The notes under the pieces: model-generated | Told to the model about the DNA's origin: nothing | Database searches by the model: none | The model's input: only the letters and a program-made list of their open reading frames with translations | Translations under genes and position numbers: made by a program | Source: Actinotalea subterranea | Lineage (GTDB): Bacteria > Actinomycetota > Actinomycetes > Actinomycetales > Cellulomonadaceae | DNA length: 64,000 bases | Direction: 5' to 3' | NCBI RefSeq assembly: GCF_008364845.1 | Contig: NZ_VTTP01000009.1 | Coordinates: 1 to 64,000 of the forward strand | Shown: positions 51,640 through 60,088 of the stretch, piece after piece | How positions within the stretch are numbered: position 1 is the first letter of the stretch | How the letters are laid out: every line of letters begins with the position of its first letter

Positions 51640-53109
51640 TCAGCCGTCCGTGAGGGGCTGGGGTGCGCCGTCGAGCGCACGCACGGCGTCGACGAACGCC
51701 GCGCCGCGGTCGGCGTACGAGGCGAACTGGTCCATGGACGCGCACGCGGGGGCGAGCAGCACCGTGTCGCCCGGCCGGGCGAGCCGGCGGGCCTCGTGCA
51801 CTGCACGGCTCATCACGGTCCCAGTGTCGGCGGGATCGATGCCGACGGCGGGGATTCCCGGCGCGTGTCGGCCCAGGGCCTCGCGCCACGGTCCCTGGTC
51901 GACGCCGATGAGCACGACGGCCCGCAGCCGCTCCGCCCGGTCCCGGACCAGGTCCTCGAAGCGCGCGCCCTTCGCGAGCCCGCCCGCGACCCAGACGACC
52001 GAGCCCGCAGGGAAGGACCCGAGGGACGCCGCCGCGGCGTGGGCGTTGGTCGCCTTGGAGTCGTCGACGTACGCGACCCCGTCGACGTCCGCGACGTGCT
52101 CGATGCGGTGCGCTCCCGGCCGGTACGCGCGCAGCCCGTCGCGCACCGCCGCGGCGGGCACCCCGTGGGCCCGCGCGAGCGCGGCGGCCGTGAGCGCGTC
52201 GGCGACCACGTGGCCCGCGAGGTGCGCGCCGGCACCGGCGAGGTGCGCGAGGTCGTCGACGGTGCCGAGCTCGGCCGCGGTCGTGTGCCGGGCCCGGTCC
52301 TCCCACGCCGTGTGGAACGCGCGGTCCACGAGGATCCCGTCGACCAGACCGAGCTGGCCCGGTCCGGGCGCACCGAGCGTCACGCCGACCGCGCGCGCAC
52401 CCTCCGCGACGTCGGCGTCACGCACGAGCGCCTCGAGCCGCGGGTCGTCCGTGCCGTAGACGCACGCGACCTGCGTGCCCGTGAAGATGCGGCCCTTGGC
52501 GGCCGCGTAGGCCTCGAACGAGCCGTGCCAGTCCAGGTGGTCCGGCGCGATGTTGAGGACCGCGGCCGCCTCGGGCGCCATCGTGCGGGTGAAGTGGAGC
52601 TGGAAGCTCGAGAGCTCGACGGCCAGCACGTCGTTCGACGGGTCCGTCGCCGCGGCGACCGCGGGCTCGCCCACGTTGCCGACCGCGGGTGCGCGCTCCC
52701 CCGCCGCCGACAGGATCGCCGAGAGCATCCCCACGGTCGTCGTCTTGCCGTTGGTCCCGGTCAGCACGAGCCACGGGGCCGGGCCCGGGCGACCGGCGCG
52801 CTCCACCCGCAGGCGCCACGCGAGCTCGATCTCGCTCCACACGGGCAGTCCGCGTGCGACGGCCGCGGCCAGGAGGGGCGACGTCGGCCGCCAGCCCGGG
52901 GACGCGACGACGAGGTCCACGTCGGCGAGGTCCACCTGCCCGGCGTCGCGCACGTCGGCGTCGGGCGCGTGCTCGTCGACCGTGACCACGCGGGGTGCGG
53001 CCGGGCCGAGGTCGCGCAGCGCCGCCGCCGCTGCGCGCCCGGACAGCCCGAGCCCCGCGACGAGGACCCGCCGACCGGCGAGGCCCTCGAAGGGGTCGTC
53101 ACGTGCCAC
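51640..53109 (-). CDS. murD: UDP-N-acetylmuramoylalanine--D-glutamate ligase
   Basis: MurD adds D-glutamate to the growing stem peptide. The 489 residues have RRVLVAGLGLSGRAAA, the ATP site [36 protein letters not shown], and the C-domain VAYVDDSKATN. The GTG at 53109 shares one base with the mraY TAG stop. Length and order are normal for the family. Confidence 0.96.
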   Translation of the reverse strand: MARDDPFEGLAGRRVLVAGLGLSGRAAAAALRDLGPAAPRVVTVDEHAPDADVRDAGQVDLADVDLVVASPGWRPTSPLLAAAVARGLPVWSEIELAWRLRVERAGRPGPAPWLVLTGTNGKTTTVGMLSAILSAAGERAPAVGNVGEPAVAAATDPSNDVLAVELSSFQLHFTRTMAPEAAAVLNIAPDHLDWHGSFEAYAAAKGRIFTGTQVACVYGTDDPRLEALVRDADVAEGARAVGVTLGAPGPGQLGLVDGILVDRAFHTAWEDRARHTTAAELGTVDDLAHLAGAGAHLAGHVVADALTAAALARAHGVPAAAVRDGLRAYRPGAHRIEHVADVDGVAYVDDSKATNAHAAAASLGSFPAGSVVWVAGGLAKGARFEDLVRDRAERLRAVVLIGVDQGPWREALGRHAPGIPAVGIDPADTGTVMSRAVHEARRLARPGDTVLLAPACASMDQFASYADRGAAFVDAVRALDGAPQPLTDG

Positions 53110-54191
53110 TACCCGGCCACCCACTCGGCGTAGAAGATCCCGACGCCGCCGGCGACGAAGAGGCCCGCGATGATCCAGAAGCGGATGACGATCGTGACCT
53201 CGCCCCAGCCGGACAGCTCGAAGTGGTGGTGCAGGGGCGCCATCTTGAACACGCGCCTGCCCGTCATCTTGAAGAACCCGATCTGGATGACGTCGGAGAG
53301 CACCACGAGCACGAACATCCCGCCGATGATGGCCGCGAGGATCTCGGTGCGGGACAGGATCGACAGGCCCGCGAGCGCCCCGCCCAGGGCGAGCGAACCC
53401 GTGTCGCCCATGAAGATCTTCGCCGGTGACGCGTTCCACCACAGGAACCCGAAGCACGCCCCGGTCACGGCGGCGGCGACGACCGCGAGGTCGAGCGGGT
53501 CCCGGGTCTCGTAGCAGCTCGGACCCGCCGTGAAGAGGCTCTGGCAGGTCTGGTTCGACTGCCACACGCCCACGAGCACGTACGCGCCGAACACGATCAG
53601 CGAGACGCCCGCAGCGAGCCCGTCGAGGCCGTCGGTGAGGTTCACGGCGTTGGACCACGCCGTGATGAGGAAGTTGGCCCACAGCACGAAGAGGATGAGC
53701 CCGATCGTCGCGCCCTGGAACGCGAGGTCGAGGTTCGTGTCGCGGATGAACGAGATGTGGGTCGACGCGGGCGTGCGGAAGCTCTCGTTCGGGAACTGCA
53801 GCGCGAGGACCGCGAAGGTCACGCCGACGAGGCCCTGGCCCACGATCTTCCACCGTGCAGACAGGCCGAGGCTGCGCTGCCGCGAGATCTTGATGAAGTC
53901 GTCGAGGAAGCCGACGACCCCGAGCCCCGTCATGAGGAAGAGCACGAGGAGCGCCGAGGCGCTCGGCATGTTGCCCGTGACGAGCCCCGCCCCGCCCCAT
54001 CCGAGGAGCGTCGCGACGATGATGACGACGCCACCCATGGTCGGTGTCCCACGCTTGGTGAAGTGCGCGGTGGGGCCGTCCTGGCGGATGAACTGGCCGT
54101 ACTGCCGCCGCACGAGGAACCGGATGAACAGCGGGGTGCCGAGGAGCGCGATGAGCATCGACAGCCCACCGGAGATGAGGACCGCCCTCAT
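53109..54191 (-). CDS. mraY: Phospho-N-acetylmuramoyl-pentapeptide transferase
   Basis: MraY moves phospho-MurNAc-pentapeptide onto undecaprenyl phosphate, making lipid I. The 360 residues have ten predicted helices with [23 protein letters not shown], the catalytic-region [12 protein letters not shown] and the [13 protein letters not shown] loop. The substrate is the pentapeptide, so MurF activity is needed for it to work, yet no intact murF precedes it here. The ATG overlaps the murE-fusion stop by 4 bases. Confidence 0.97.
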
Positions 54192-56260
54192 CGGGTGACC
54201 ACCGGGCGCCCGACGAGCGCGTCCACCACGCGGCTCAGCCCGGCCTCGGCAGAGCCCTGCACGAGCACGACGTCACCGGGCTCGATGCCGTCGGCGACCC
54301 AGGCGAGCGCTGCGTCGACGTCGGGCACCAGACGCGTCTCCTCGCCCCACGAGCCCTCCTGGAGGGCGCCCGTGTGGATCGCGCGGAACCGCTCGCCCAC
54401 GACCACCAGGCGGCCGACGTCGAGCCGGACCGCGAGGCGACCGACCTCGTCGAGACGAGCGACGGCGTCGGGCCCGAGCCCGCTCACGCCACCGACGACC
54501 GCGACGGTGCGCCGGCCCTTCGCGCGGACCGCGAGGTCCCGCAGCCCGGCCCGGAGCGCCTCGACCGTGCTCACGGCCTGCTCGTCGCCCGCGTCGTCGG
54601 GTGCACCCGTGGCGTCGACGACGACCACGGCGTCGGGGCGCTCGGTCACGCGCGGACACCCCTCGGCGTGCTGCGCCGCGGCGACGGCGGCGAGGAACAC
54701 GTCGCGGTCGTTGTACCGGTGGAACACGCCGGCGATCTCCTGGGTCGGTTCGTGGCCCTTGCCCGTGACGATGACCGTGTCCTGCTCCCCCGCGAGCTGC
54801 AGCGCGAGCCGGATGGCCCCGGCCCGGGAGTCGGCCTCGTGGACGTCGAAGCCGTCCGGCCGCACGCCGTGCACGCCCTCGAGGATGGCGCGCCGGATCG
54901 TGGCCGGGTCCTCGGAGCGCGGGTTCTCGTCCGTGACCACGACGACGTCCGCGAGGCGCGCCGCGACCTCGCCCATGATCGGGCGCTTGCCCTGGTCCCG
55001 GTCGCCGTCCGAGCCGAGCACGATGACGAGGCGGCCGGGGGTGATGGGCCGGACCGCCTCGAGGGCGAGCACGAGCGCGTCGGGCGTGTGCGCGTAGTCC
55101 ACGAGGCACAGGGGCCGCCCGGCACCCCGCTCGACGACGCGCTCCATGCGCCCGGGGATCGCGTGCGCCCGCCCGACGGCCTCGGCGGCCTGCTCGAGAG
55201 GGACGCCGGCACGGTGGGCGAGCACGACGGCGAGGGCGGCGTTCGAGACGTTGACGAGCCCGGGCAGCGGGCTCACCGCGGCCACGCGCTGCCCCGACGG
55301 TCCCACGAGCGTGAAGGTCGAGCCCACGCCGTCGAGCCCGATCGTCGCCTCGGTCACGCGCCAGTCGGCGTCGGCCAGCCCCGCCGAGTCGTCCCTCGTC
55401 GCGACCGTCTCGACGGGGATCGCCGACTCGTGGGCGAGCCTGACGCCCCACGCGTCGTCGACGCACACCACGCCCCGGCGGGCGTGGCCGGGCGCGAACA
55501 GGCGCGCCTTGTCGCGGAAGTAGCCCTCCATGTCGCCGTGGAAGTCCAGGTGGTCGCGCTGGAGGTTCGTGAACCCGGCGACGTCGACCTCGAGCCCGCC
55601 GACCCGTTCGAGCGCGAGCGCGTGGGACGAGACCTCCATCGCGCACGCGGTCGCGCCGCGCTCGCGCATGAGCGCGAACAGGCCGTGCAGGACGGGCGCC
55701 TCGACGGTCGTGCGCGGGCTCTCGATGGCCTCCTCGCCGACCCGCAGCTCGACCGTGCCGATGACCGCCGTCGCGGCGTGCACCGACCGGAGCGCGGCGT
55801 CGACGAAGTAGCACGTGGTCGTCTTGCCGTTGGTGCCCGTGATGCCGACGACCGTGAGCCCGCGGGCGGGGTGGTCGTAGAACCATGCGGACAGCTCCCC
55901 CAGGAGCGTGCGGGGCGAGGCGTCCTCGGACCACGTCAGGACGGGCACGCGCAGGTCCGCGCCCAGGCGTGCCGCACCGGCCAGGTCGGTGAGCACGGCG
56001 ACCGCGCCGGCCGCGACCGCCTGAGCGGCGTAGTCCGCGCCGTGCGCCCGCAGACCGGGCAGGGCGACGAACAGGTCGCCCGGGAGGACGTCGGCGGAGC
56101 CGACGGCGACACCTGTCACGAGCACGTCCGGGCCACCCTGCTCCGCGGTCCCGACGCCCGACGGGCTCGGGGCAGGGCGAAGTGCGAAGGTTCCGGCGAG
56201 GTCGCTGAGGTGACGGGAGGCTCGATGCTCGGGCCGCATCCGGCCCTGGGGGGACGTCAC
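54188..56260 (-). CDS. murE: MurE ligase fused to a MurF C-terminal-domain remnant
   Basis: MurE adds the third stem amino acid. Of 690 residues, 1-530 are a full MurE: N-domain, ATP site [11 protein letters not shown] (139-149), carbamylated-Lys region [19 protein letters not shown], and the specificity loop [10 protein letters not shown] (443-452). Residues about 545-690 instead match MurF domain 3: [71 protein letters not shown]. MurF domains 1 and 2 with their own ATP site are missing. The GTG at 56260 follows TAGATT by 6 bases. The third amino acid (DAP, Lys or Orn) is not certain. Confidence 0.92.
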
Positions 56261-56331: not shown

Positions 56332-58641
56332 TCACTGCCACGTCGTGGGCAGCAGCTGGGCCTGGGTGCCGCTCGGCGGGATGCCGAGGTGACGCAGCGC
56401 GTGCGCGGTGACCTCGCTGAACACCGGCGCTGCGACGTCGCCGCCGTAGATCGACGTCTTGGGGTCGTACAGGGCGACGTTGACGACGAGGCGGGGGTCG
56501 TCCGCGGGCGCGATGCCGATGAAGGACGCGACGTTCTTGACGACGCCGTTGCCCTCGAACGCCTGAGCCGTACCCGTCTTGCCGGCGATGCGGTAGCCCG
56601 GGACGGCCGCCTTGGTGCCCGTGCCGTCCGCGACCGCCGTCTCGAGCATCTGGAGGATCGTGTCAGCGGTCTGCTCGCTCACGACCTGGGTCTGGGGCAC
56701 CTCGACCGCGTGGAAGACGCCGTCGGCGTCGGTGGTGCCCTTGACGAGGTGGGGCTGCACACGCACGCCGCCGTTGGCCAGCGTCGCGAACACCTGGGTC
56801 GCCTGGAGGGTCGTGACGGAGACGGCCTGACCGAAGAGCACCGCGTACTCGGAGCGCCCGTCCCAGTCCTCGGCCGCAGCCAGGAGCCCCGACTGCTCGC
56901 CGGGGAGCCCGACGCCCGTCGTCGAGCCGAAGCCGAACTTGCTCAGGTAGTCGTGGCGCACCTGCTTGGGCACCTGCTGCCCCACCATGACCGTCCCCGT
57001 GTTCGAGGACTCCGCGAGGATCCCCGTGAGCGTGAGGTTCAGGTCTGCGTGCTCGTGCGAGTCCTTGAACGTCTGCCCGTTGCCGACGGTGTACTGGTAC
57101 GGCACGACGAACTGGGACGCGGGCGTCGCGACACCCGTCTCGAGGATCGCCGCCATCGCGATGACCTTCGCGGTCGAGCCGGGCTCGTACATGACCGCCG
57201 CGGCCCGGCTCGGAGCCGCGTTCGTGGGGCTGTTGGGGTCGATCGTCCCGGAGTCGGCGAGCGCGAGGATCTCGCCCGTCGCGACGTCGAGCACCTCGAC
57301 CGTGCCCCACTCCGCGCCGGTCGCGAGCACCTGCGCGTCGAGCGCCTGCTGCGCCATGTACTGGAGGTCGAGGTCGAACGTCAGCTGCAGGTCGTCGCCG
57401 GGTACCGCGGGGGTCACGTCGTCCGCGCCCGTCGGGATGCGCTGGCCCAGCCCGCCCTGCTCGAACGTCTCCGAGCCGGCCTTCCCGGTGAGCTGGTCGT
57501 CGTAGATCTGCTCGAGGCCCGCCTGCCCGTAGCCCTCGGCGCCGGTGAAGCCCACGATGTTCCCCCCGGTGGTGCCCGCCGGGTACACGCGCTCCGTCGT
57601 CCGCTCCGCCGTCACGCCGACGACGCCGAGGTCCATCACCTGGCGGTGCACCTCGGGCGTCACACCCTTCTTCAGGTACACGAACTGACGCTCGCCCATG
57701 AGCTTGGGGGCAAGCTCCGCCGCCGGGATGCCGAGGAACGGCTCGAGCTCGCCGGCAGCCTCGAGCGCCGCGTCCTGCGACGAGTCCGCGCGCTGGAACA
57801 GCAGCTGGTTGATCACGATGTCGTAGCGCTCGACGGTGGTCGCCAGGACCTTGCCCTGGGCGTCGACGATGTCGCCCCGGTCACCCGGGATGGCGACGGT
57901 CTCGAGCCTCTCCTCGAGCGCGACCTGGGCGATGGCGGGGCCCTCGACGCCCTGGACGATCACCAGGCGACCCGTGAAGACCACCAGGAGCACGACGACG
58001 GCCACGAGCAGGATCGACTGCCTGCGGTGCGGCGTGCCGACCGTCAGGCGGCGCGGCCCGGGCGCCTGCACCCTCGTGCCCGCGACCGCCGCGGTCCGCG
58101 CGGACGTCGCCGGTGCGGCCGACGTGGCCGACGCCGGGCGCGCGCGGCGCGGGTCCGGTACGCCGCGCGTGACCGACCGCTGGGTGGGGACGCGGTCGGC
58201 AGGGCGCGGGACCTGGGGATGGGCCGGCGAGGTGCGGGGTGCCGAGGTGCGGGGGGTGGACGGGCCGCTGTCGGTGCGGGCCGAGGTCGGCCGCCCGGCG
58301 CCCGGGAGCGCCGCGGGCCCGGTGTCGCGACGCCGCGCACCGCCGGTCGCGCGGCTGCCCGTGCGCTCGGCGCCCCGGCCGGCGGCGGGGGTCGCAGACG
58401 CCCTGGGCGAGGCCTGCGCACGGGGCGAGTCGAGGCGGGACGCGCGCACGCGGTCGGGTCCGGGCCGGGGTGCCGTGCCGCGCGCCGTCCGGACGTCGGA
58501 GGAGTCGGCACGGCCTCCGCCGCCCGGGCGCGCCGCACCGGCACGCTCGGGGCGCGCAGTGCTCGCGGGCGCTGGGGTGGCGGGCGCGGCGGTGGGCGTG
58601 CGCCGGCCAGCCGCGCGGTCCGGCTCGCGACGCACGCTCAT
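56332..58641 (-). CDS. ftsI: Septal transpeptidase FtsI (class B PBP) with a long N-terminal tail
   Basis: FtsI crosslinks septal peptidoglycan with FtsW. The 769 residues start with about 208 of Pro/Ala/Arg/Ser-rich disordered sequence, then one membrane helix (210-228), a pedestal domain and the transpeptidase domain. Catalytic motifs are STAK (489-492), SSN (545-547) and KTG (688-690). The tail is cytoplasmic and far longer than the usual 20-50 residues. The ATG overlaps the ftsL stop by 4 bases. Confidence 0.95.
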   Translation of the reverse strand: MSVRREPDRAAGRRTPTAAPATPAPASTARPERAGAARPGGGGRADSSDVRTARGTAPRPGPDRVRASRLDSPRAQASPRASATPAAGRGAERTGSRATGGARRRDTGPAALPGAGRPTSARTDSGPSTPRTSAPRTSPAHPQVPRPADRVPTQRSVTRGVPDPRRARPASATSAAPATSARTAAVAGTRVQAPGPRRLTVGTPHRRQSILLVAVVVLLVVFTGRLVIVQGVEGPAIAQVALEERLETVAIPGDRGDIVDAQGKVLATTVERYDIVINQLLFQRADSSQDAALEAAGELEPFLGIPAAELAPKLMGERQFVYLKKGVTPEVHRQVMDLGVVGVTAERTTERVYPAGTTGGNIVGFTGAEGYGQAGLEQIYDDQLTGKAGSETFEQGGLGQRIPTGADDVTPAVPGDDLQLTFDLDLQYMAQQALDAQVLATGAEWGTVEVLDVATGEILALADSGTIDPNSPTNAAPSRAAAVMYEPGSTAKVIAMAAILETGVATPASQFVVPYQYTVGNGQTFKDSHEHADLNLTLTGILAESSNTGTVMVGQQVPKQVRHDYLSKFGFGSTTGVGLPGEQSGLLAAAEDWDGRSEYAVLFGQAVSVTTLQATQVFATLANGGVRVQPHLVKGTTDADGVFHAVEVPQTQVVSEQTADTILQMLETAVADGTGTKAAVPGYRIAGKTGTAQAFEGNGVVKNVASFIGIAPADDPRLVVNVALYDPKTSIYGGDVAAPVFSEVTAHALRHLGIPPSGTQAQLLPTTWQ

Positions 58642-59084
58642 CCCTGCGGCCCCGCTGGGACGGGGTCGCCGAGGATCGCTCCGTCGGAGAGTCGCAGGTA
58701 GGCGCCGTGGGCCGTCGGGATCATCCCGAGGGCCTGGGCGGCGGCGGCGAGCTGGGCCGAGCTGGACCGGGTCTGGAGCTCGGCAGTCTTCTGCTCCTGC
58801 ACCTGGCTGGACTCCGAGAGCCGGTTCTGCAGGGCGATGCGCTCGTACTCGCCCTGTGCCATGGCCGTGTTGAGCAGGAGCGCGCCGAGCAGGGAGGACG
58901 CCAGCAGCGCCATGCACAGGAGCACGAAGGGCACGCGGGTGCGTGCCTGGGCAGGTGCGCGGACGACGTGGAGCCGGGGCCGGGCCGGCGTCGCCGGGAC
59001 CGGTGCACGCCGGGGCGACGTGGGGGCGACGTCGGGCGCACCACGACGGGGGGCGCGGACGGCACTGGCCTGGGCCGCGCTCAT
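58638..59084 (-). CDS. ftsL: FtsL-like divisome protein
   Basis: FtsL links FtsQ, FtsB and FtsI-FtsW and helps activate septal synthesis. The 148 residues have a basic Pro/Ala cytoplasmic part, a membrane helix ([22 protein letters not shown]) and a short leucine-zipper-like coiled coil ([24 protein letters not shown]). Sequence is weakly conserved in this family, so the call rests on topology and its place between rsmH and ftsI. The ATG at 59084 overlaps the rsmH stop (ATGA). Confidence 0.85.
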
Positions 59085-60088
59085 GCCGCCCACCGGGCCG
59101 TGACGACGCGCAGGTGCTCGGGGGTGGGCCGTACCCGGGTCGCGGCACGCAGCCGCACCGAGGCGGACCGGGGGTTGGCCGCGAGCTCCGAGGCCGACGC
59201 CTGCTCGGCGCCGCGAGTCAGGAGCGTCAGGTACGGCCGGTGGGTCTCGGGCTCGACGGGCAGGCCCGCGGGTGCGCTCGAGACGGCGCCGCGAGCCAGG
59301 GCGCGCTTGACGATCCGGTCCTCGAGGGACTGGTAGGACATGACGACGACGCGCCCGCCGACGTCCACGCTCTCGAGCGCGGCGGGCAGGGTGCGCTCAA
59401 GGACCTCGAGCTCGCTGTTGACCTCGATCCGCAGCGCCTGGAACGTGCGCTTGGCCGGGTTGCCTCCCGTCGTACGGGCCGCCGCGGGGATCGCCGCGCG
59501 CACGATCTGCACGAGCTCGGCCGTGCGGGTCAGCGGCACCGCTGCACGCTGGGTCACGACTCGGCGTGCGATGCGTGCGGCGAACTTCTCCTCGCCGTAC
59601 TCGCGCAGGATCCGCACGAGCTCGTCCTCCGGGTAGGTGTTGAGCACCTCTGCTGCCGTCCGGCCCGTCGAGGGGTCCATCCGCATGTCGAGGGGTGCGT
59701 CCTGCGCGTACGAGAAGCCTCGCTCGGGCTCGTCGAGCTGGAGCGAGGAGACGCCGAGGTCCGCCAGGAGGCCCTGGACCGGCCTGCCCACCACGTCCTG
59801 CACCACGTCGAGCACCTCGTCGTAGACCGCGTGCACCGCGGTGAACCGGTCCCCGAACCGGCGCAGGCGGGCACCTGCGAGCGCGATCGCCTCCTGGTCC
59901 CGGTCGAGCGCGACGACGCGGAGGGTCGGGAACCGCTCGAGCAGCGCCTCGGTGTGGCCGCCCATGCCCAGGGTCACGTCGACCACCACGGGGCGGGGGA
60001 CGTCGAGCGCGGGCGCGAGCAGCTCGATGCAGCGCTCCAGCAGGACGGGGATGTGGCGGTCCTGCGCGGGGCGGTCCTGCTGGGTCAT
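59081..60088 (-). CDS. rsmH: 16S rRNA (cytosine-N4)-methyltransferase
   Basis: RsmH (MraW) methylates C1402 of 16S rRNA. The 335 residues show the SAM site [70 protein letters not shown] and [12 protein letters not shown]. The ATG at 60088 follows GGAGGTGAG. A 257-base leader after mraZ carries a hairpin like the actinobacterial mraW RNA motif. It overlaps ftsL by 4 bases. Confidence 0.97.

Follow-up and report, generated by a model that had tools for sequence, protein, structure and literature searches.

Fusion of MurE to the third domain of MurF, and apparent displacement of MurF by a MurF-like ligase, in part of the genus Actinotalea

A 64,000-nucleotide stretch of the Actinotalea subterranea genome (NZ_VTTP01000009.1, positions 1 to 64,000; hereafter the window) contains a murE gene that runs in frame into the third domain of MurF, with the other MurF domains absent from the locus. 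By comparing related genomes, the fusion was found in every sampled Actinotalea genome that carries a different MurF-like ligase, here called MurF2, and in none of those that keep canonical murF. The fused domain has lost motifs associated with MurF catalysis and retained a polar patch, and its ratio of nonsynonymous to synonymous substitution rates (dN/dS) is below 1. It is considered probable, with considerable room left for other readings, that MurF catalysis has been displaced by MurF2 and that domain 3 has been kept as a non-catalytic docking module.

The fusion is encoded on the minus strand by a single open reading frame (ORF) that runs from 56260 down to 54188, starts with GTG and specifies 690 amino acids. 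The MurE portion (residues 1-530; 54671..56260, minus strand) contains the Pfam domains Mur_ligase, Mur_ligase_M and Mur_ligase_C; residues 40-531 gave a full-length match to the MurE model NF001124 (515.5 bits, cut-off 476) and also exceeded the cut-off of TIGR01085 (439.8 vs. 257.3 bits). A linker placed by alignment, which differs in length among species (54629..54670, minus strand), leads to the tail, residues ~545-690 (54191..54628, minus strand). Here the Pfam scan detected Mur_ligase_C for a second time in the protein, and in the whole-genome search this copy (PF02875) was located at 54251-54568, exceeded the cut-off of 28.4 bits with a score of 41.9 and covered profile positions 21-126. 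The murF model TIGR01143 matched 54215-54568 with its end only (profile 307-418), at 45.1 bits, far under its whole-protein cut-off of 288.6. These matches, together with alignment to canonical MurF, confirmed the tail as MurF domain 3. The Pfam scan found neither the PF01225 N-domain nor the PF08245 ATP-binding domain in the tail, and the whole ORF scored 479.5 bits with the bifunctional MurE-MurF model NF008896, under its cut-off of 1023. The initial annotation, in which a complete MurE to about residue 530 continues in frame into a MurF domain 3 deprived of its N-terminal and ATP-binding domains, and in which a profile search was expected to return a lone Mur C-domain, is borne out by these results.

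NCBIfam gives this MurE the name of a diaminopimelate ligase. Its C-domain (54755-55153) contains a DNPR motif, which presumably bears on the amino acid that MurE adds. The peptidoglycans of Actinotalea contain L-Orn as published in the accessible part of PMC8878594, and given this the diaminopimelate-ligase name may be wrong.

In profile searches of the source genome (completeness 100), whose 28 contigs include C28 with the window, neither a canonical MurF nor a MurF N-domain was found. Five copies of Mur_ligase_M are present, in MurE, MurC and MurD (the last two named by position), FolC and one MurF-like protein on contig C21, and the PF01225 N-domain occurs twice, once in MurC and once in MurE; since all these copies are assigned to other enzymes, the genome has no canonical MurF. 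The C21 protein is MurF2.

The genus sample comprised 19 genomes including the source, ten fused and nine normal. MurE and domain 3 form a single ORF in the ten, two of which (G006 and G017) are single contigs, and the linkers of the nine fusions other than that of the window span 6-42 amino acids by the same alignment method. A murF with its ATP domain occupies the same place in the other nine, being cut by a contig end in G004 and G012, the latter also without a detected murE. All normal genomes but G012 (eight of nine) have the PF01225 N-domain of MurF, which is found in none of the ten fused ones; G006, one of the latter, gives an additional weak PF01225 match of 18.7 bits that contains a stop. 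When the C21 protein was searched against the 19 genomes, copies of 67-80% identity were returned in exactly the ten fused genomes (split over two contigs in G013) and only normal MurF, at 37-40% identity, in the nine normal ones. The two arrangements are thus complementary throughout the genus: all ten fused genomes have MurF2, and all nine with murF lack it. Several of these absences rest on draft genomes, and the pattern is nonetheless consistent in 19/19. In a wider sample of relatives, the tail was matched in 37 of 39 genomes; outside the genus, it lay within a full murF in 17 of the 18 matching genomes and was cut by a contig end in the remaining one (G019).

MurF2 retains the TGSYGKTSTK and DDTYN(A/S)NP motifs, together with a His and a Lys that are invariant and placed as in MurF, the P-loop and the second motif being invariant apart from A/S among the 12 aligned sequences checked; (Y/F)N(A/S)NP was present in 33/33 MurF2 rows, in which one gene was entered twice. 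Its best NCBIfam match is TIGR01143, at 177.5 bits and hence below the cut-off. Besides Mur_ligase_M, it has a Mur_ligase_C domain of its own, and no match to the uridine diphosphate (UDP)-binding N-domain PF01225 was obtained in the Pfam scan. A MurT-type C-terminal domain, whose presence in place of Mur_ligase_C we take to be a mark of MurT, is also absent, the Pfam matches at E up to 10 being Mur_ligase_M, Mur_ligase_C and one chance match. Within the first 155 residues, at least two hydropathy peaks over 1.6 were found in 32 of the same 33 rows (one peak in L134), as judged by simple hydropathy rather than by a membrane predictor. In the MurF2 tree, the proteins of the genus (nine rows) form one clade. 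Alignment A3 comprises 21 author-chosen loci out of 80 named ones, with L199 dropped, and the split copy of G013 was left out of alignments A1 and A3 and of the MurF2 tree.

MurF2 is typically part of a cassette with the order alpha/beta hydrolase, MurF2, Ddl-like ligase (DdlA). Altogether 571 MurF2 loci were confirmed, and neighbours were counted for the 80 named loci listed, 77 of which extend over 1,200 bp downstream and 70 over 900 bp upstream: the Ddl-like gene lies within 400 bp of MurF2 in 70 and the hydrolase within the same distance in 66. The cassette occupies the same site in all ten fused genomes (over two contigs in G013), in the order murA-plsC-gpsA-[PLP enzyme]-...-ddlB-DUF3515-thiL, where PLP stands for pyridoxal phosphate. 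In the two of nine normal relatives read at this site (G002, G018), a canonical ddl is found where the cassette sits. Canonical ddl, a label set by score (221-233 bits) and by these two loci, was found in every normal genome except G012 (eight of nine) and in 0/10 fused ones. A full murF elsewhere, as the initial annotation had expected, was not what the genome offered; in its place stands a MurF-like ligase without the N-domain, with hydrophobic N-terminal segments and with a Ddl-like gene in its cassette.

A second Ddl-family gene (129 bits; L078:8261-9217, minus strand) faces the cassette in all ten fused genomes, and a related second Ddl is located elsewhere in the two normal relatives read. 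According to a table in the accessible part of PMC8878594, D-Ser occurs in the peptidoglycan of some Actinotalea and is absent from that of others.

The pattern of apparent displacement extends beyond the genus. No TIGR01143 match over the cut-off was found in 20 of 21 MurF2 carriers, the source genome included, and 19 of the 20 carriers searched outside the genus lack canonical MurF (L138 was left out of this search and of the profile search for domain 3 described below, and the dcw loci read did not include that of G430). The exception is Nocardioides sp. YR527 (L250), which carries MurF2, has no murF in its dcw cluster and encodes a canonical MurF (421 bits) ~290 kb from the dcw genes. There, canonical murF stands together with vanX, a D-Ala-D-Lac ligase gene and vanH-, vanR- and vanS-like genes (L250:1310-9115); VanX and the D-Ala-D-Lac ligase exceed their cut-offs, and the best matches VanH, VanR-O and VanS-O fall below theirs. 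In view of this van-type cluster, MurF2 may have no part in the D-Lac pathway. In 8 of 20 MurF2 carriers, just one Ddl match passed E<=1e-10, and in six of these it lies beside MurF2. Judging from gene content, MurF2 is the only candidate for the essential MurF step in nearly all carriers.

Domain 3 has also been retained outside Actinotalea, as a separate gene. The survey outside the genus covered 37 MurF2 carriers: 19 had their dcw loci read (the stretch of L248 being without mraY) and 18 were searched with profiles, with loci read for the seven of these that gave strong matches. In 12 of the 37, a small ORF between murE and mraY encodes MurF domain 3, either by itself or preceded by the end of domain 2. 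Eleven of the 12 bear the label Microbacteriaceae or that of a genus within this family, and one is labelled Frankiales; the ORF is present in all 11 Microbacteriaceae-labelled carriers among the 80 named loci listed. The assignment of these stand-alone ORFs rests on a MurF profile built from relatives (58-167 bits), since Pfam Mur_ligase_C gave a weak match below the cut-off for L235, none for L238 and one that just passes for L275. The start positions of their best matches to the profile are 216, 254, 271 and 273, followed by 331-356, a trimming series that stops at domain 3. The least trimmed relic, L273:4005-5042 (Microbacteriaceae RYN_62), spans profile positions 216-466 and retains the end of domain 2.

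Conserved motifs were compared between 22 orphan domains and 23 canonical MurFs of relatives, four of 27 canonical proteins (L044, L050, L069, L076) being too short for motif and column counts. Three motifs with presumed catalytic roles are missing from every orphan, namely (Y/F)N(A/S)NP (0/22 vs. 22/23 in canonical MurFs), GE(M/L/I)xELG (0/22 vs. 19/23) and K(S/A/G)S (0/22 vs. 23/23). On the other hand, EGS(W/F) was found in 22/22 orphans and 19/23 canonical MurFs, and its extended form EGS(W/F)..E(S/T) in 22/22 orphans, 13/23 canonical MurFs and 0/33 MurF2 rows. The tail in the window follows the same pattern, with the catalytic motifs lost and an EGSW..ET patch retained. Orphan columns conserved in 22/22 are G390, V394, R395, G405, E418, G419, S420 and E424; at positions 345-348 only 9-11 orphans are aligned, and pattern counts were used there instead of columns. 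The loss of catalytic residues combined with retention of a polar patch argues for a non-catalytic role of the protein. Furthermore, dN/dS of domain 3, calculated by the Nei-Gojobori method, was 0.14-0.29 in seven nearer fused pairs and 0.05, 0.09, 0.13 and 0.26 in four of five stand-alone pairs, compared with 0.03-0.29 in six canonical pairs and 0.14-0.31 for MurE; the ratios are rough, since dS is already 0.5-1.1 in the nearer fused pairs.

Phylogenetic analysis indicated that domain 3 has probably been orphaned at least twice independently, because a single clade of all orphans was disfavoured by the approximately unbiased (AU) test (p 0.023, 126 columns) and because the fused genomes and 11 Microbacteriaceae rows fall into separate supported groups of the MurE tree. 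In the domain-3 tree, the ten fused rows group together with one long-branched stand-alone row. Within the genus, a four-gene tree, in which the rows of G004 and G012 are under half filled, needs two changes for the fusion, and a single fused clade was not rejected (AU p 0.19).

In the proposed sequence of events, a hydrolase–MurF2–DdlA cassette would have replaced the native ddl in the gpsA–thiL interval in part of Actinotalea, and MurF2 and the Ddl-like ligase of the cassette may have taken over making and adding the terminal dipeptide. The native murF would then have been free to decay, and an in-frame deletion of MurF domains 1 and 2 would have joined murE to domain 3. The remaining domain would no longer catalyse or bind nucleotide in the manner of MurF, and selection would keep it as a protein-protein dock that positions MurE close to the proteins acting next, the likeliest of these being MraY, MurG or MurF2. 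The idea in the initial annotation that MurF catalysis had moved elsewhere and that murE was joined in frame to the end of murF is supported by the relatives, but the second enzyme is not the full MurF that had been envisaged. A role of the remnant as scaffold, regulator or partner, as also put forward there, fits the evidence.

Some published observations on Mur ligases bear on such a role. In the available part of PMC6420597, the MurE-MurF protein of Bordetella is described as interacting with MurG, and a two-hybrid interaction between MurF and MraY of Caulobacter is cited. MurT amidates lipid I and II and not soluble UDP precursors according to the accessible text of PMC6085368, and the portion of PMC6113224 at hand argues that a UDP-binding domain would be needless for MurT and would clash with the membrane. 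Based on this literature, MurF2 may act at the membrane, perhaps on a lipid-linked substrate, and domain 3 may be the part of MurF that docks membrane-side partners.

Several results weigh against this combined explanation of displacement and docking. No domain 3 was seen in 25 of the 37 MurF2 carriers outside the genus (14 of the 19 loci read and 11 of the 18 profile-searched genomes, ten of these 11 giving weak matches of 20-40 bits in long frames, taken as MurF2 itself with the loci not read, and one giving no match), and the module is therefore not generally needed. Selection on the domain is present but relaxed in some copies: dN/dS reached 0.44-0.52 in four pairs with the window's own copy and 0.60 in the fifth stand-alone pair, and domain 3 of the fused genomes evolves faster than MurE. 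In addition, the sole Ddl match of G424 and G430 lies on another contig, with no Ddl seen within 8 kb of MurF2 (L156, L153). Finally, the 4-bp coupling to mraY alone could explain why the 3' end of murF was retained.

The last point leads to an alternative that is a real, if minority, possibility, in which domain 3 is a passenger: the 3' end of murF would have been spared for the coupled start of mraY, and the domain would only fold harmlessly while slowly eroding. The stop of the fusion overlaps the start of mraY by 4 bp (54188..54191, minus strand), the arrangement of a normal murF-mraY pair, and the same overlap was found in all 21 other orphan domain-3 ORFs and at 26 of 27 canonical murF loci. 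The faster evolution of the fused domain, the higher dN/dS values up to 0.52, the loss of catalytic motifs and the graded trimming of stand-alone relics (profile 216-466, 254-467, 271-468, 332-466) are in line with erosion. However, an upstream stop would suffice for such coupling, and in the MurF2 carriers L243, L247 and L249, which have no remnant, MurE itself overlaps mraY by 4 bp. Also against a passenger are the polar patch EGS(W/F)..E(S/T), which is more regular in orphans than in canonical MurFs, and dN/dS well under 1 in the nearer pairs.

Another reading, regarded as rather doubtful, builds on the MurT literature: MraY would use UDP-MurNAc-tripeptide from MurE, a membrane-embedded MurF2 would add the dipeptide to the lipid-linked intermediate, and domain 3, whether on MurE or as a free protein encoded between murE and mraY, would be the adaptor for hand-over from MurE to the membrane enzymes. 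If MurF2 did act on a lipid-linked substrate, the cytoplasmic steps would not everywhere follow their textbook order. Columns with disjoint residues between the ten fused and nine normal genomes (seven for FtsI and MurE) numbered 0/361 in MraY, 7 in MurD, 6 in FtsI and 10 in MurE, many of them gappy or variable. There is hence no support for an altered specificity of MraY, and the comparison is mildly against lipid-linked addition.

It is unlikely, but deserves consideration, that domain 3, instead of docking MraY or MurG, acts in trans on MurF2 as its regulator or partner subunit, or else affects MurE allosterically. All genomes in which a lone domain 3 was seen have MurF2, namely the ten fused ones and 12 other carriers, and none of the Microbacteriaceae-labelled carriers is without it. 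But MurF2 has its own Mur_ligase_C domain, most of the other carriers do without domain 3, and in 22/22 cases the domain adjoins mraY and not the MurF2 cassette. A split MurF, in which domain 3 would be completed by N- and ATP-binding domains encoded elsewhere, is very improbable and was rejected: the remnant is indeed a domain-sized piece, which is the sole point for it, but the genome has no spare copy of Mur_ligase_M or PF01225, each known copy belonging to another whole enzyme, and 22/22 orphans are without the domain-3 motifs that contact the nucleotide. An error of sequencing or assembly, or a pseudogene of very recent origin, has a negligible chance and was rejected, nothing having been found in its favour. 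Normal murF does occur in 9/19 genomes of the genus, as the initial annotation had required of an assembly error, but the fusion and its mraY overlap recur in ten genomes of different species, two of them single contigs, with linkers of different lengths.

Four known systems come closest to the arrangement described here. The Bordetella pertussis MurE-MurF protein (PRK11929.1/NF008896) likewise has MurF sequence joined to the C-terminus of MurE, but there, as far as the available part of PMC6420597 goes, the whole MurF and its activity are retained. The tail corresponds to the third domain of canonical MurF, whose gene is at the same place in nine genus relatives, but lacks the N- and ATP-binding domains and the YNANP, GEMxELG and KSS motifs; among MurFs of known structure, 4cvk and 1gg4 are closest in sequence. 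Like MurT of the MurT/GatD system, MurF2 is a Mur ligase without a UDP-binding N-domain; it differs from MurT in its hydrophobic N-terminal segments, the MurF-type DDTYNxNP motif and, usually, a Ddl-like neighbour. The van-type cluster of Nocardioides sp. YR527 also encodes a Ddl-family ligase and a MurF close together, but its MurF is canonical. Among the papers listed, with most subscription papers outside coverage, none had a title or opening of the abstract that dealt with a membrane MurF, and no publication on a Cellulomonas MurE/MurF fusion was found; none was found on murF in the Acidimicrobiia peptidoglycan literature, and the search on murF loss from the dcw cluster gave only titles on other topics. 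MurF2 is not claimed here to be unpublished.

MurF and Ddl are generally regarded as invariant, essential enzymes that drugs can target. Two groups within one genus that differ by an apparent replacement of both provide a natural experiment. The retained domain may also be a lead to the surfaces that hold Mur ligases, MraY and MurG together, which is a poorly defined question; the persistence of a non-catalytic domain of MurF in the absence of MurF activity, probably in two or more lineages, draws attention to one particular patch.

With regard to the neighbouring genes, mraY is an ORF of 360 amino acids at 53109..54191 (minus strand), whose orthologues adjoin the tail in relatives. The ftsI gene, encoding a penicillin-binding protein, lies upstream of the fusion at 56332..59148 (minus strand; the start of this ORF is not fixed), and its order matches that of relatives wherever their stretch extends far enough. 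The ORF coordinates agree with the initial placement of ftsI upstream and of mraY across the 3' end by 4 bases.

In the phylum sample, MurF was detected over the cut-off in 141 of 159 genomes. In at least nine genomes of family f23 (G452, G467, G482, G496, G519, G530, G562, G583 and G604), MurF-like matches of 206-247 bits start at profile positions 26-65 and stay below the murF cut-off; among the matches listed, another f23 genome, G508, has no MurF match at E 1e-44. MurF-like proteins without the N-domain may thus be common in this family, perhaps family-wide.

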